Source: Sandaracinobacteroides sayramensis
GTDB taxonomy: Bacteria > Pseudomonadota > Alphaproteobacteria > Sphingomonadales > Sphingomonadaceae
Length of the DNA stretch: 45,621 nucleotides
Reading direction: 5' to 3'
NCBI RefSeq assembly: GCF_022014495.1
Contig: NZ_JAKLSQ010000002.1
Coordinates: 1-45,621, forward strand
Shown: piece by piece, positions 4,336 through 45,621 of the stretch
Layout: each line of letters begins with the position of its first letter
Numbering within the stretch: the stretch's first letter is position 1
Translations under genes and position numbers: made by a program
The notes under the pieces: generated by a model
Told to the model about the DNA's origin: nothing
Seen by the model: the letters and a program-made list of their open reading frames with translations, nothing else
Database searches by the model: none

Positions 4336-4427
4336 CGTCCCCCCCGGGCTTGACCCGGGGTCCAGCTTTTCTGCAGGCGCCGCGCTGGAACAAGAAAGCT
4401 GGACCCCGGGTCAAGCCCGGGGGGACG
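4336..4427. repeat. REP-like inverted repeat, copy 1
   Basis: Two arms of about 33 bp (4336-4369 and 4395-4427) are inverted complements except for one extra C in the left run. Each arm contains the smaller palindrome CCCGGG-CTTGA-CCCGGG followed by a (T)CCAGCTTT block. The element begins 17 bases after the Anbu stop codon. Similar elements lie at 21169-21247 and 43819-43908, each just after a plus-strand stop codon. No transposase is present. It could also act as a transcription barrier between the Anbu operon and rpmH. Confidence 0.85.
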
Positions 4428-12164: not shown

Positions 12165-12226
12165 TTGACAGAAGGGCAAGCTTGCCCAATCCTTCAAGCC
12201 GGGTCCGCTGGACGAGGGAGAAGGGG

Positions 12227-12637
12227 ATGTCGAAAGGCGTGTCTGAAGGCATGGGGCTGCTGGGGGCGGCGTTGCTGCTCGCCGGCTGCGCGAGCGGCAG
12301 CAACGATTCCGCCAATCGCAGCGTCTGGGTGGAAGACGGCCCGCCGGTGAACTGCATCAGCCTGAACCAGGTGCGCAGCTTCCGCGCCATCGACGACCGG
12401 ACCATCGATTTCGAGCGCAACCGCAATCAGGCCTGGCGCAACAATCTGCCGCACAGCTGCTCCGGCCTCAGCTTCGGCCAGGCCGTCCGCCACAACAGCC
12501 GCACCAGCCAGCTGTGCAGCTTCGACACCATCACCCCCGTCTCGATGGCACGCGGCCCCAACCCGCCCCGCTGCCAGCTCGGCCAGTTCCAGCCCATGAA
12601 GCGAGTCCCCGCGCCGGAAACCCCGCCGGCGGGGTGA
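12227..12637 (+). CDS. DUF6491-like lipoprotein
   Basis: This 136-residue protein starts MSKGVSEGMGLLGAALLLAGCASG: a signal peptide ending in a lipobox (LAGC), so it is probably a membrane-anchored periplasmic lipoprotein. The mature part resembles the DUF6491 pattern, with spaced cysteines in VNCISL, HSCSGL, QLCSFD and RCQLGQF and the phrase VRSFRAIDDRTIDF. ATG at 12227 has AAGGGG just upstream; an in-frame TTG at 12182 would add 15 residues before the signal peptide and is less likely. Its TGA (12635-12637) forms the first bases of the composite palindrome that separates it from rbfA. Function is unknown. Confidence 0.8.
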   Translation: MSKGVSEGMGLLGAALLLAGCASGSNDSANRSVWVEDGPPVNCISLNQVRSFRAIDDRTIDFERNRNQAWRNNLPHSCSGLSFGQAVRHNSRTSQLCSFDTITPVSMARGPNPPRCQLGQFQPMKRVPAPETPPAG

Positions 12638-12844
12638 GGGAGAACGCCAGGGGGCTTTGCCCCCTGGACCCCCAGCAGGAGGGTGACCCTCCTGCACCTC
12701 CATAAGTTTGCAGAAGAGCCCCCCGAAAGCCGACGTGCGTGCACAGCCGTCAGTTTCGGGGGGCTCTTCTGCAAACTTAAAGGGGGTCAAGGGGCGTCAC
12801 GCCCCTTGCGGGGTGCAGGGGCAGAGCCCCTGCGTTCTCCCTCA
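12635..12844. repeat. composite palindromic element filling a convergent gene gap
   Basis: The 210-bp element has 13-bp terminal inverted repeats (TGAGGGAGAACGC at 12635-12647, complement at 12832-12844). Inside are four short hairpins: A 12647-12667, B 12675-12695, C 12788-12808 and D 12815-12833. A central palindrome has 26-bp perfect arms at 12703-12728 and 12754-12779. The left half aligns with the reverse complement of the right half: A corresponds to D and B to C. The terminal repeats contain the stop codons of both flanking genes. Bases 12646-12701 recur identically at 45566-45621. It may act as a bidirectional terminator or be a mobile non-coding repeat; no transposase is present. Confidence 0.9.
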
Positions 12845-13285
12845 CTCGTCGTCGAGGATTCGGGGCGGGGCCTTGTCTTCCAGGTCGCGGGCGACCTGGG
12901 GGGAGCGCAGCAGGGCGTCGATGCGGGCGGCTTCGGCGTAGCTTTCGTCCACGCGGAAGTGGATTTCGGCGGCGTATTTGGTGTTCACGCGCCGGGCCAT
13001 CTCGCCCTTCAGCTGCTTGCTTTGGCTGTTGAGGGCCTTCAGCACCGCTTCCTGCTCGGCGGGGGTGACGCCGACTGGCATGATGTAGGCGGTGGCGTGG
13101 CGCAGGTCGGGCGAGACTCGCACTTCCGAGATGGAGACGATGTGCCGGTCCAGCACATCGTCGCGGAGCGTGCCGCGCGCCAGCACATCGGCCAGCACGT
13201 GGCGCATCGCCTCGCCCACCTTCAGCGTGCGGACGGACCGGCCTTCGCCCCGGTCCTGCGAGGAAGAGGCGTGCTGGCGCTTCAC
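12842..13285 (-). CDS. rbfA: 30S ribosome-binding factor RbfA
   Basis: RbfA binds the maturing small subunit near the 5' end of 16S rRNA and is needed for late 30S assembly and cold adaptation. The 147-residue protein has the KH-like core: RTLKVGEAMRHVLADVL, ITISEVRVSPDLRHATAY-type sequence (here ISEVRVSPDLRHATAY), and the end of the domain with IHFRVDESYAEAARIDALL. The GTG at 13285 overlaps the infB TGA by four bases; longer in-frame starts lie inside infB. It is the last gene of the rimP-nusA-ylxR-infB-rbfA operon; the usual truB-rpsO-pnp do not follow, the gap being filled by the composite palindrome. Confidence 0.95.
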   Translation of the reverse strand: MKRQHASSSQDRGEGRSVRTLKVGEAMRHVLADVLARGTLRDDVLDRHIVSISEVRVSPDLRHATAYIMPVGVTPAEQEAVLKALNSQSKQLKGEMARRVNTKYAAEIHFRVDESYAEAARIDALLRSPQVARDLEDKAPPRILDDE

Positions 13286-16140
13286 AGTTCGCGCAGACGC
13301 TCTTCGATCTCGAAGGTCTCGATCACGTCGCCTTGCTGGATGTCCTGGAAGTTTTCGAGGCCGATGCCGCACTCATAGCCCTTCTCGACCTGCGTGACGT
13401 CGTCCTTGAAGCGGCGCAGCGAGGCGATGGAGCCATTGTAGACGATGACGTCGTCGCGCAGGACGCGCGCCTTCAGGTTTCGCTTGATATAGCCTTCGGT
13501 GACGAGGCAGCCGGCGGCCTTGCCGAACTTGCCCGCCTGGAAGACTTCGCGAACGTCGGCGCGGCCGACAACATTCTCGAAATATTCCGGGCCGAGCTTG
13601 CCGGCCATCCCGGCCTTCACTTCGTCGATCAGGTCGTAGATGATGTCGTAATATTTCAGCGGAACGCCGGCCTGGTGCGCGGCTTCGCGGGCCTTGGCGT
13701 TGGCGCGCACGTTGAAGCCGATGATGAGCGCGCCCGAGGCCCGGGCGAGCGTCACGTCGGATTCGGTGATGGCGCCGACGCCCGAGTGCAGCACGCGCAC
13801 GCGGATCTCGTCGGTGGACAGCTTGTTGAGCGCCGAGACGATCGCCTCGGTGGAACCGTGCACGTCGGACTTGACGACGACGGGGAACTCCATCGCCTTC
13901 TTCTCGGCTAGGCCGGCGAACATGCTTTCGAGGCTGGCAGGCGCCGAGGTGGTGCGCTTGGTGAGCGCCACCTGCTGGCGATAGGCCGCCACTTCGCGGG
14001 CGCGGGCTTCGGATTCGACGACCGTCAGCAGGTCGCCCGATTGCGGCACGCCGGAAAGGCCCAGCACTTCCACCGGCAGCGAGGGGCCGGCTTGCTTGAT
14101 GGTCTGGCCCTTGTCGTTCACCAGCGCGCGGACCTTGCCCCATTCGGTGCCGACGACGAAGATGTCGCCGGTGTTGAGCGTGCCGCGCTTCACGAGAACG
14201 GTGGCGAGCGCGCCACGGCCCTTGTCCAGCTTCGATTCCACCACGATCGCCTCGCCCATCCGGTCGGGATTGGCCTTCAGCTCCATGATTTCGGCCTGCA
14301 GCAGGATCTTCTCGGCCAGTTCGTCGAGGCCGGTGCGCTTCAGCGCCGAGACTTCGACGTCCTGCACCTCGCCGCCCATTTCCTCGACCTGGATGTCGTG
14401 CTGCAGCAGTTCGGTGCGCACGCGGTTGGCGTCGGAGCCGGGCTTGTCCATCTTGTTGATGGCGACGATCATCGGCGCGCCGGCCGCCTTCACATGGGCG
14501 ATGGCCTCGATGGTCTGCGGCTTGATGCCGTCGTCGCCTGCCACCACCAGCACGACGATGTCGGTGGCGTTGGCGCCGCGGGCGCGCATTTCGGAAAAGG
14601 CCTCGTGGCCCGGCGTGTCGAGGAAGCTGATCTTCTCGCCCGACTTCAGCGTCACCTGATAGGCGCCGATATGCTGGGTGATTCCGCCCGCCTCGCCGGC
14701 GGCGACTCCGGTTCCGCGCAGCGCGTCGAGCAGCGAGGTCTTGCCATGGTCGACATGGCCCATGATGGTGACGACCGGCGGGCGCGGCTTCAGGCTTTCC
14801 GGCGTATCGGCTTCGCCTTCGATGCCCTGTTCCACGTCGCTGTCGGACACGCGCTTGATGATGTGGCCGAATTCGGTGACCAGCAGCTCGGCGGTGTCCT
14901 GGTCGATGGTGGCGTTGATGGTGGTGGGCATGCCCATCTTGAACAGCAGCTTCACCAGATCGGCGCCGCGCTCGGCCATGCGGTTGGCGAGTTCCTGCAC
15001 GGTGATCGCTTCGGGCACCTGCACTTCGCGCGCCGTGCGCGACTGGGCGGCGGCGCCGCCGCCATGGGCGGAGCGCTTCTGCTTTTCATGCGCGCGGCGC
15101 ATCGCCGCGACCGAACGGGAACGAGTGCCGTCCTCGTCGCCAGTGGCGCGGGTGATGGTGAGCTTGCCCTGGCGGCGGTGGTCGTCGCGGACGTTACGCG
15201 AGGGCTTGGCCGGCTCGGGGGCGCGGCGCACCGGGCCACGGCTGGGCAGCGCGCTGCGCGGGCGCTCCTCTTCCTCTTCCGGGGCGGCGGGCGGCGCAGG
15301 CGGGGCTTCGGCGGCGCGCTTGGCGGCTTCCGCCGCGCGGGCGGCTTCCTCGGCCTCTGCCCTGGCTTTTTCCTCCAGGCGCAGGCGCTCGGCTTCCTGC
15401 GCTTCCGCCTTTTCGCGGGCTTCGCGGATTCGGCCTTCCTCGGCGCGCTGCAAACGCTCTTCCTCGGCGAGGCGGAGGAGGAGCTGCTGCCGTTCGCGCG
15501 GAGTCAGCTTCGGATTCTGCAGCGCCCTTTGCACGGGCGTCAGCTCCGGCTTCGCGGGCGCGGCCGGCCTGGGCGCCGGCTTCGGCGCGGGGGCAGGCGC
15601 GGGCCTGGGCGCCGGGGCGGCAACGACCGGCGCAGGCGCGGGTTCCGGCTGCGGCTCGGGCGCGGCTTCCGCCACGGGCAGGGCGGCCGGCTCGACCGCC
15701 GGAGCGGCTTCGGCGGGCGGAGCCGCTTCGGGTGCGGGCTCCGCTTGCGGCTCGGGCGCGGCCTGAACCTCCGGCTCGGGTTCCGGCTCGGGCTTCGGCG
15801 CGGGGCGGGCCGGTTCGGCCTTATTCAGCGGCTCGTCCGTCACCACCACGAAGGGCGGCGGCGGGGCGACGGGCATGGCCGGCGCGGCCGGCTGAACGGG
15901 TTCCGGGGCAGCGACGGGCGTGGCGGGCACGGCTTCGGCGGCCTCGTCCTGATAGTCAGGAGAAGCGTCTGCGGGCGCGGGATCCCCCGGCTTGCGGAAG
16001 ACACGGGCCTTCTTCGTCTCAACCACGACCTTGTGCGTGCGCCCATGGCTGAAGCTCTGCTTCACCTGGCTCACTTCGGTCGTGCGTTTCACGCCGAGCT
16101 GTGGCCTCAGGCCCAGTTTCGGCTTTTCCTCTTCGCTCAT
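13282..16140 (-). CDS. infB: translation initiation factor IF-2
   Basis: IF-2 brings fMet-tRNA to the 30S subunit and promotes subunit joining with GTP hydrolysis. This 952-residue protein has a short conserved N-terminus, then a long Ala/Pro/Glu-rich low-complexity linker (about residues 50-320), an IF2 N-terminal domain near 370-420, and the G domain: G1 GHVDHGKT (461-468), G3 DTPGHEAF, G4 NKMD. Domains II to IV follow, ending [20 protein letters not shown]. The linker is compositionally biased, which explains the long reading frames seen on the opposite strand. The ATG overlaps the ylxR-type stop by four bases. Confidence 0.97.
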
Positions 16141-21168: not shown

Positions 21169-21247
21169 CACCCCGGGCTTGACCCGGGGGCCAGCTTTCT
21201 CGCCAGCGTCGGCAAGAAGCGGGATCCCGGGTCAAGCCCGGGATGAC
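21169..21247. repeat. REP-like inverted repeat, copy 2
   Basis: The left arm (CACCCCGGGCTTGACCCGGG and the following CCAGCTTT) and the right arm (AAGAAGC...ATCCCGGGTCAAGCCCGG, shortened) are the same sequences as at 4336-4427 and 43819-43908, somewhat more diverged in the inner part. It starts 44 bases after the hisD stop. Confidence 0.8.
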
Positions 21248-43818: not shown

Positions 43819-43908
43819 CCACCCCGGGCTTGACCCGGGGGGCCAGCTTTCCGGACGGCAAAGCGCTCAAGGAAAAAAGCTGGACCCCGGGTCAAGCCCG
43901 GGGTGACG
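43819..43908. repeat. REP-like inverted repeat, copy 3
   Basis: The left arm begins GCCACCCCGGGCTTGACCCG and continues through CCAGCTTT; the right arm AAAAGCTGGACCCCGGGTCA reads back to it. The inner CCCGGG palindrome and CCAGCTTT block match copies 1 and 2. It starts 12 bases after the acyl-CoA dehydrogenase stop. Confidence 0.85.
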
Positions 43909-45557: not shown

Positions 45558-45565
45558 GGAAGAAG

Positions 45566-45621
45566 GCCAGGGGGCTTTGCCCCCTGGACCCCCAGCAGGA
45601 GGGTGACCCTCCTGCACCTCC
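45566..45621. repeat. composite palindrome, left half of a second copy
   Basis: These 56 bases are identical to 12646-12701, including hairpins A and B. The element starts nine bases after the catalase stop and is cut by the window end, so the central palindrome and right half are not visible. Confidence 0.85.

Follow-up and report, generated by a model that had tools for sequence, protein, structure and literature searches.

Several kinds of described palindrome come close to the element reported here. REP and BIME sequences, including the GTAG/CGTC REP dimers of Di Nocera 2013 (PMC3733652), are extragenic palindromes, often arranged as inverted dimers, that lie at gene 3′ ends, and REPs near the 3′ ends of convergent ORFs are already known from the same source. 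REPINs, for which the definition in PMC3116915 was used for comparison, consist of inverted repeats that form one large hairpin and exist as a population of copies within a genome, together with a RAYT. Bidirectional intrinsic terminators (PMC5381666) are palindromes between convergent genes that undergo compensatory changes, whereas hairpins and inverted repeats maintained by template switching (PMC8794818; PMC8604942; PMC6649704) display arm homogenisation, inversion of the loop or spacer, and perfect arms without imperfect intermediates. The element shares these traits and departs from each system, so far as the excerpts of those sources used here describe it. Relative to REP/BIME, it has four hairpins flanking a long central stem, no GTAG/CGTC tag, a convergent position in 21/21 cases, stems homogenised by species, and a symmetry that spreads into the genes; unlike REPINs, it is carried by genomes without a RAYT; unlike the terminators, it lacks a T-rich tail by the scan used and has almost no G-U pairs; and, whereas the template-switch systems are rRNA, yeast genes and worm mitochondria, it constitutes a dispersed bacterial repeat family. 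Short multicopy extragenic palindromes at gene 3′ ends are what the broad REP/BIME definition covers, and the element is of this kind; we would class it as a new REP/BIME-like family for which no mobiliser is known. In the literature on such palindromes, surveyed through titles and the openings of abstracts with few subscription journals, no earlier description of the family was found.

The window analysed is a stretch of 45,621 nucleotides from Sandaracinobacteroides sayramensis. An initial annotation had proposed a composite palindrome at 12635–12844 that takes in two convergent stop codons; reading of the sequence bears this out, and the gene names it used, DUF6491 and rbfA, are confirmed by matches to Pfam PF20101 and PF02033. 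The features are as follows, with the strand given where one applies.

12182–12637, plus strand: DUF6491 gene (Pfam PF20101), 3′ end inside the element
12634–12647: terminal inverted repeat, left end, holding the DUF6491 TGA; variable between loci
12635–12844: whole composite palindrome, stop to stop (hairpin listing, fold; seven copies in the own genome)
12647–12667: hairpin A (CCAGGGGGC-TTT-GCCCCCTGG), covarying family
12675–12695: hairpin B (GCAGGAGGGT-G-ACCCTCCTGC), covarying family; the next bases complete the motif CACCTC
12703–12728: central stem, left arm, 26 bp; two-sided changes between types at 15/21 positions
12729–12753: central loop (25 nt), inverted in copy L006 (loop comparison)
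12754–12779: central stem, right arm, pairing perfectly with the left arm
12788–12808: hairpin C, at motif GGGGTCAAGGGG (hairpin listing; covarying family)
12815–12833: hairpin D (hairpin listing)
12832–12845: terminal inverted repeat, right end, holding the rbfA stop (hairpin listing)
12842–13372, minus strand: rbfA (Pfam PF02033), 3′ end inside the element
45558–45621, plus strand: A-B half of a further copy, truncated where the contig ends (own-genome sequence comparison)

The element lies where it had been annotated and has the four hairpins and perfect 26-bp central arms described for it, in the order A, B, central stem, C, D, as mirror-image double hairpins; the left half does match the reverse complement of the right (79% in a self-alignment over the full length), and the B and C stem sequences had been quoted correctly. 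The stop codons occupy 12635–12637 (TGA of DUF6491) and 12842–12844 (rbfA, minus strand). Terminal inverted repeats of 13 bp had also been claimed: the pair at 12634–12647 and 12832–12845 is exact, by inspection over 14 bp (it is also listed as a 19-nt pair at 89%), but the outer 13–14 bp vary among loci and species and do not belong to the constant part of the element. At −185.1 kcal/mol, the predicted RNA fold is far more stable than those of 200 dinucleotide-shuffled sequences (−103.66 ± 5.17; z −15.75; 0/200 as low). Because the differences between the two halves of the window copy recur in other copies, this single copy is no evidence of independent compensatory events, and the informative covariation is that between copies and species, not within one copy.

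Further genomic copies were found. The genome itself (G000, 3.82 Mb) holds seven, 92–97% identical to the window copy; six are intact and one is split across two contig ends, one being the end of the window and the other that of contig C34, with a 15-bp overlap by inspection. An exact pattern over the central part retrieved 21 copies in 4/298 family genomes, all belonging to the same genus, whose six genomes carry seven (G000), six (G002), two (G003), six (G005) and none (G001, G004). A 22nd element, L116, at the rbfA/DUF6491 site of G002, is broken by another palindrome and was missed by the exact pattern. Overall, the elements measure about 185–210 bp. Class II repeats, also present in the own genome, combine the outer double hairpin with other interiors. 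A covariance model of this double hairpin matched 1/99 family genomes (the own, at 59/59 scored places) and 2/190 class genomes, the second with three weak matches, in searches whose stricter filters scored only the best candidates per genome, so that weak relatives may be missed.

In a collection of 84,980 species the central 17-mer occurs at 24 loci, each a single match with no inverted pair reported; spread over many phyla, against about 30 expected, these are about what chance provides. Plasmid and phage records (E 1e-3) and viral contigs (exact 22-mer) contain no match to the element, and the 11 Rfam matches, all to long hairpins and up to E 1, are below threshold (best 55.1 bits, cut-off 136). 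Among the genomes searched, the element is a non-coding composite palindrome confined to its own genus.

The double-hairpin modules of the own genome seem clustered: contig C9 (60 kb) holds 7/59 scored modules, the contigs listed being C9, C10, C6 and C7, and 18 sampled 20-kb stretches of contigs C1, C2 and C39 contained no module. The three weak class-level matches are in G459, a distant genome from another family of the same class; one of them is L178, around 1501–1552. In L116, at 1193–1554, the palindromes are nested: the element's central stem-loop harbours a second, different one (GCTCAGGCTGAGCTTGTCGAAG with its inverse).

The unusual feature of the family is its complete restriction to convergent junctions. 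Gene calls from a codon model, for which the window served as training set, place 21/21 elements between convergent genes (the right gene of L006 being a weak call), with both stop codons −3 to 29 bp from the match edge in 20 of the 21; the exception, L078, is an interrupted copy with stops 57 and 92 bp away. Since only 40/315 junctions are convergent in a sampled 400 kb of the same genome, the probability of this arising by chance is negligible. None of those 40 carries a listed copy, so the element is optional. Co-directional and divergent gaps hold no copies, which suggests either that the element blocks or ends transcription in both directions or that it is recruited to convergent junctions. 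Class II loci are distributed differently, with 12 convergent, eight co-directional and no divergent cases among 20.

Empty sites in relatives, whose existence the annotation had left to be checked, are present as well: 15 orthologous junctions at eight loci, located with chimeric C-terminal queries and then read, are without the element, their stops overlapping by 4 or 8 bp in seven and standing 9–62 bp apart in eight. Six more junctions, with other long inserts or gaps of 138–715 bp, were left unscored. At the window locus, G000 and G002 are filled, and G001 and G005 are empty, with the two stops overlapping as CTAG. With only six genomes, the empty state may be ancestral or the result of loss. 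The influence of the element on convergent transcription could be tested directly on such junctions, where one gene pair is found both with and without it.

Covariation between copies and species is very strong. In an alignment (A2) of 48 distinct modules, obtained after dropping 3/51 and with a finder that demanded at least seven pairs per hairpin with G-T allowed, 99.9% of cells pair, and 121 cells changed on both sides, none on one. Modules found with the model (92 matches, 61 distinct, from 100 loci) are 99.3% paired, with a covariation score of 0.496 versus 0.130 when shuffled (0/500). Two-sided change is seen in 8/15 module pairs. In a hand alignment of the central stem from 11/19 elements, the eight left out being mostly near-duplicates of those kept, 227/230 cells are paired and 15/21 positions change on both sides.

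Covariation is widely taken as strong evidence of a functional RNA, and it had been read here as the signature of selection on structure. As it stands, this reading is not supported: the family is a textbook case of covariation, yet its other marks point to copying between DNA arms, and switching nearly restricted to Watson-Crick pairs, loop inversion, swapped hairpins and symmetry of coding ends are explained by such copying no less well. Nearly every pairing change is from Watson-Crick to Watson-Crick, and loops or hairpins are inverted or swapped in some copies (STATISTICALLY). The 849 cells of the model-found modules comprise 843 Watson-Crick, one G-U and five other, the 230 cells of the central stem 226, one and three, giving 2/1079 wobble pairs overall in a count that omits the loop-closing pair; a tRNA yardstick was dropped, 20 sampled stretches having held two tRNAs. 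Template switching is expected to leave loop inversions and two-sided changes that arise instantaneously (PMC8794818; PMC8604942); for rRNA, loop inversion alone is described as enriched, but its combination with compensatory changes as extremely rare (PMC8794818). Here, loop inversion was flagged in 7/47 within-genome pairs: the loop of L006 fits 6/6 other own-genome copies better when inverted (narrowly for L005, 18 versus 13.5), and that of L034 fits L041 better inverted. The outer hairpins of L037 and L046 are swapped relative to their orthologs. Both hallmarks of template switching, loop inversion and arm homogenisation, are thus present at the level of the family, single events not being polarised on a tree for which six genomes are too few.

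The mirror symmetry extends beyond the element. When each flank includes the stop and the 18 coding bases before it, inverted symmetry amounts to 261 over 20 elements, compared with 182.1 ± 16.5 when flanks are re-paired within the same genome (0/20,000 permutations); the coding ends alone give 144 versus 117.2 ± 7.8 (12/20,000, or 32/20,000 without the stop codons). By genome, the full-flank excess is strong in G000 (50/20,000) and G002 (20/20,000) and weak in G005 (1015/20,000), and in G003, with two elements only, 10,112/20,000 permutations were as high; L078 (interrupted) and L007/L011 (cut by contig ends) were left out of these tests. No excess was seen in 34 element-free convergent junctions (z −1.1), which remained after six overlapping ones were removed from the 40 of the baseline, or in the outer flanks at 12 class II loci, co-directional ones included (z −1.1; the other 8/20 loci were excluded, their second module not being found by the pattern or a module lying inside a gene call). 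Moreover, symmetry is higher in filled than in empty sites at 7/8 loci, with a tie at the eighth (Wilcoxon p 0.008), the mean score being 9.0 for 12 filled and 6.3 for 15 empty junctions. At L002, the non-coding left flank repeats, in inverted form, the last codons of the right gene, which are conserved; this suggests the direction of copying there. Alternatively, symmetric junctions might be preferred insertion sites and not a product of insertion.

On balance, we consider it slightly more likely than not that the palindrome is kept by arm-to-arm copying of DNA, that its copies are homogenised, and that it occurs only between convergent genes as a two-way 3′-end structure. On a folded strand, template switching would copy one arm onto the other, keeping and locally extending the palindrome, and the copies would be homogenised by ectopic conversion or replacement. 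Less surely, the element would be tolerated or favoured only between convergent genes as a strong two-way 3′-end structure, for example by acting as a transcription barrier or by 3′ protection or insulation, which would harm downstream genes; judged from its placement, a two-way 3′-end barrier would be its likeliest role. If true, this explanation would make the family a natural test bed for the persistence and spread of REP-like palindromes for which no transposase is known, and a caution for screens based on covariation. A bolder version, towards which we lean less than away, is that the palindrome is self-extending: folded DNA would template its own opposite arm, symmetry would grow outward and rewrite the 3′ coding ends of both genes while the copies are homogenised in step, and covariation would be a product of the replication machinery, not of RNA selection.

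Purifying selection on RNA, with ordinary compensatory mutation maintaining the stems of a bidirectional terminator or of a protector of mRNA 3′ ends, strikes us as unlikely, though not far-fetched. It would account for the convergent placement adjoining both stops and for the strong covariation, the upper stem, by inspection, is GC-rich in most types, with a pyrimidine-rich tract after it, and two-way terminators of Bacillus cereus are reported to evolve by compensatory change (PMC5381666). However, the annotation's bidirectional terminator was not recovered as a canonical intrinsic one, a scan of 12400–13100 for U-tract terminators (rule, 5 T in 8 bases) yielding 0 sites versus 0.6 in shuffles. 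In the excerpted account of the Bacillus cereus terminators, moreover, where the intermediate of an A-U/G-C switch could be resolved, it was G-U in 89.5% of cases, and 4.02% of the pairs in ancestral stems are G-U (PMC5381666), compared with 2/1079 cells here; likewise, 79% of their switches are of the A-U/G-C type (PMC5381666), against 56/131 two-sided cells of the A-T/G-C type here, which are cells and not events. The argument from few G-U pairs rests on 10 imperfect cells, and cells are not independent events; moreover, few such pairs could also remain under strong selection if intermediates were very short-lived. RNA selection predicts neither loop inversion nor coding-end symmetry, and the 0/40 sampled convergent junctions with a listed copy also count against it.

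For the homogenisation that arm-to-arm copying would be coupled with, orthologous loci are informative. Flanking proteins place nine element pairs as orthologous, five by both flanks and four by one. Central-stem arm identity is 0.87 within genomes and 0.68 between them (19 elements); in eight orthologous pairs (all but L001/L116) it is 0.58–0.71, and orthologous pairs are no closer than non-orthologous ones of the same genomes, except by 0.01 once. The seven own-genome copies form one stem type, though four of their loci are common to other species. Judging from these sequences, homogenisation between copies would be the simplest reading. The same lack of orthologous likeness would follow if hot spots had repeatedly received independent insertions of species-specific elements without concerted evolution, and inspection of the nine pairs shows opposite orientations in two and exchanged hairpins in two. 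We hold this to be distinctly improbable: nine orthologous pairs among 21–22 elements lie far above chance if all of the approximately 380 convergent gaps, a number extrapolated from the 40/315 sample, can be hit; three loci are common to G000 and G002, which an unrooted tree places together; and orientation is the same in 5/9 pairs, a point that alone is not decisive.

As to how the element arrives at its sites, the suggestion of a transposable element is plausible in that orthologous junctions differ between species in carrying it or not, but neither a RAYT-type enzyme in the carriers nor a target-site duplication was detected. A classical MITE, moved by a DDE transposase and equipped with terminal repeats and a target duplication, is very improbable: the window copy does have terminal inverted repeats and near-identical copies are dispersed, but direct repeats in the flanks of 20 elements do not exceed chance (75 versus 72.9 ± 3.3; 1558/5000 permutations), the outer repeats differ by locus, and no parent with common ends was matched among plasmids, phages and viral contigs. 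Least credible is a REPIN that a RAYT (Y1 tyrosine transposase) would mobilise in trans, despite the two inverted double-hairpin ends, the extragenic position, the many related copies and the element-free junctions in relatives, because the Y1_Tnp profile has no match in the four carrier genomes (G003 being 81% complete) but does match 5/14 control genomes, including E. coli and Caulobacter, and a fixed GTAG or CGTC tag is absent, by inspection, from alignment A1 and the flanks. A RAYT was accordingly rejected as the mobiliser in carrier genomes; G001, which lacks the element, has one partial Y1_Tnp match just above the cut-off. Loss of SbcCD was likewise considered as a cause and rejected: 6/6 genomes of the genus have no SbcD match, but only 10/59 of the family do, 1/59 above the cut-off, and this scarcity throughout the family means that it does not set the genus apart.

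Two further observations concern the surroundings of the element. At L002, L040 and L035, a neighbouring gene kept by relatives is missing beside the element, as if deletions ended there. The window also holds inverted pairs of CCCCGGGCTTGACCCGGGG at 4342–4422, 21171–21243 and 43822–43903 (contexts +/+, +/− and +/+, respectively), this motif matching six times with up to two mismatches against 0.13 expected; from our reading of the motif, these pairs presumably resemble the CGTC-type REP dimers described for Alphaproteobacteria.
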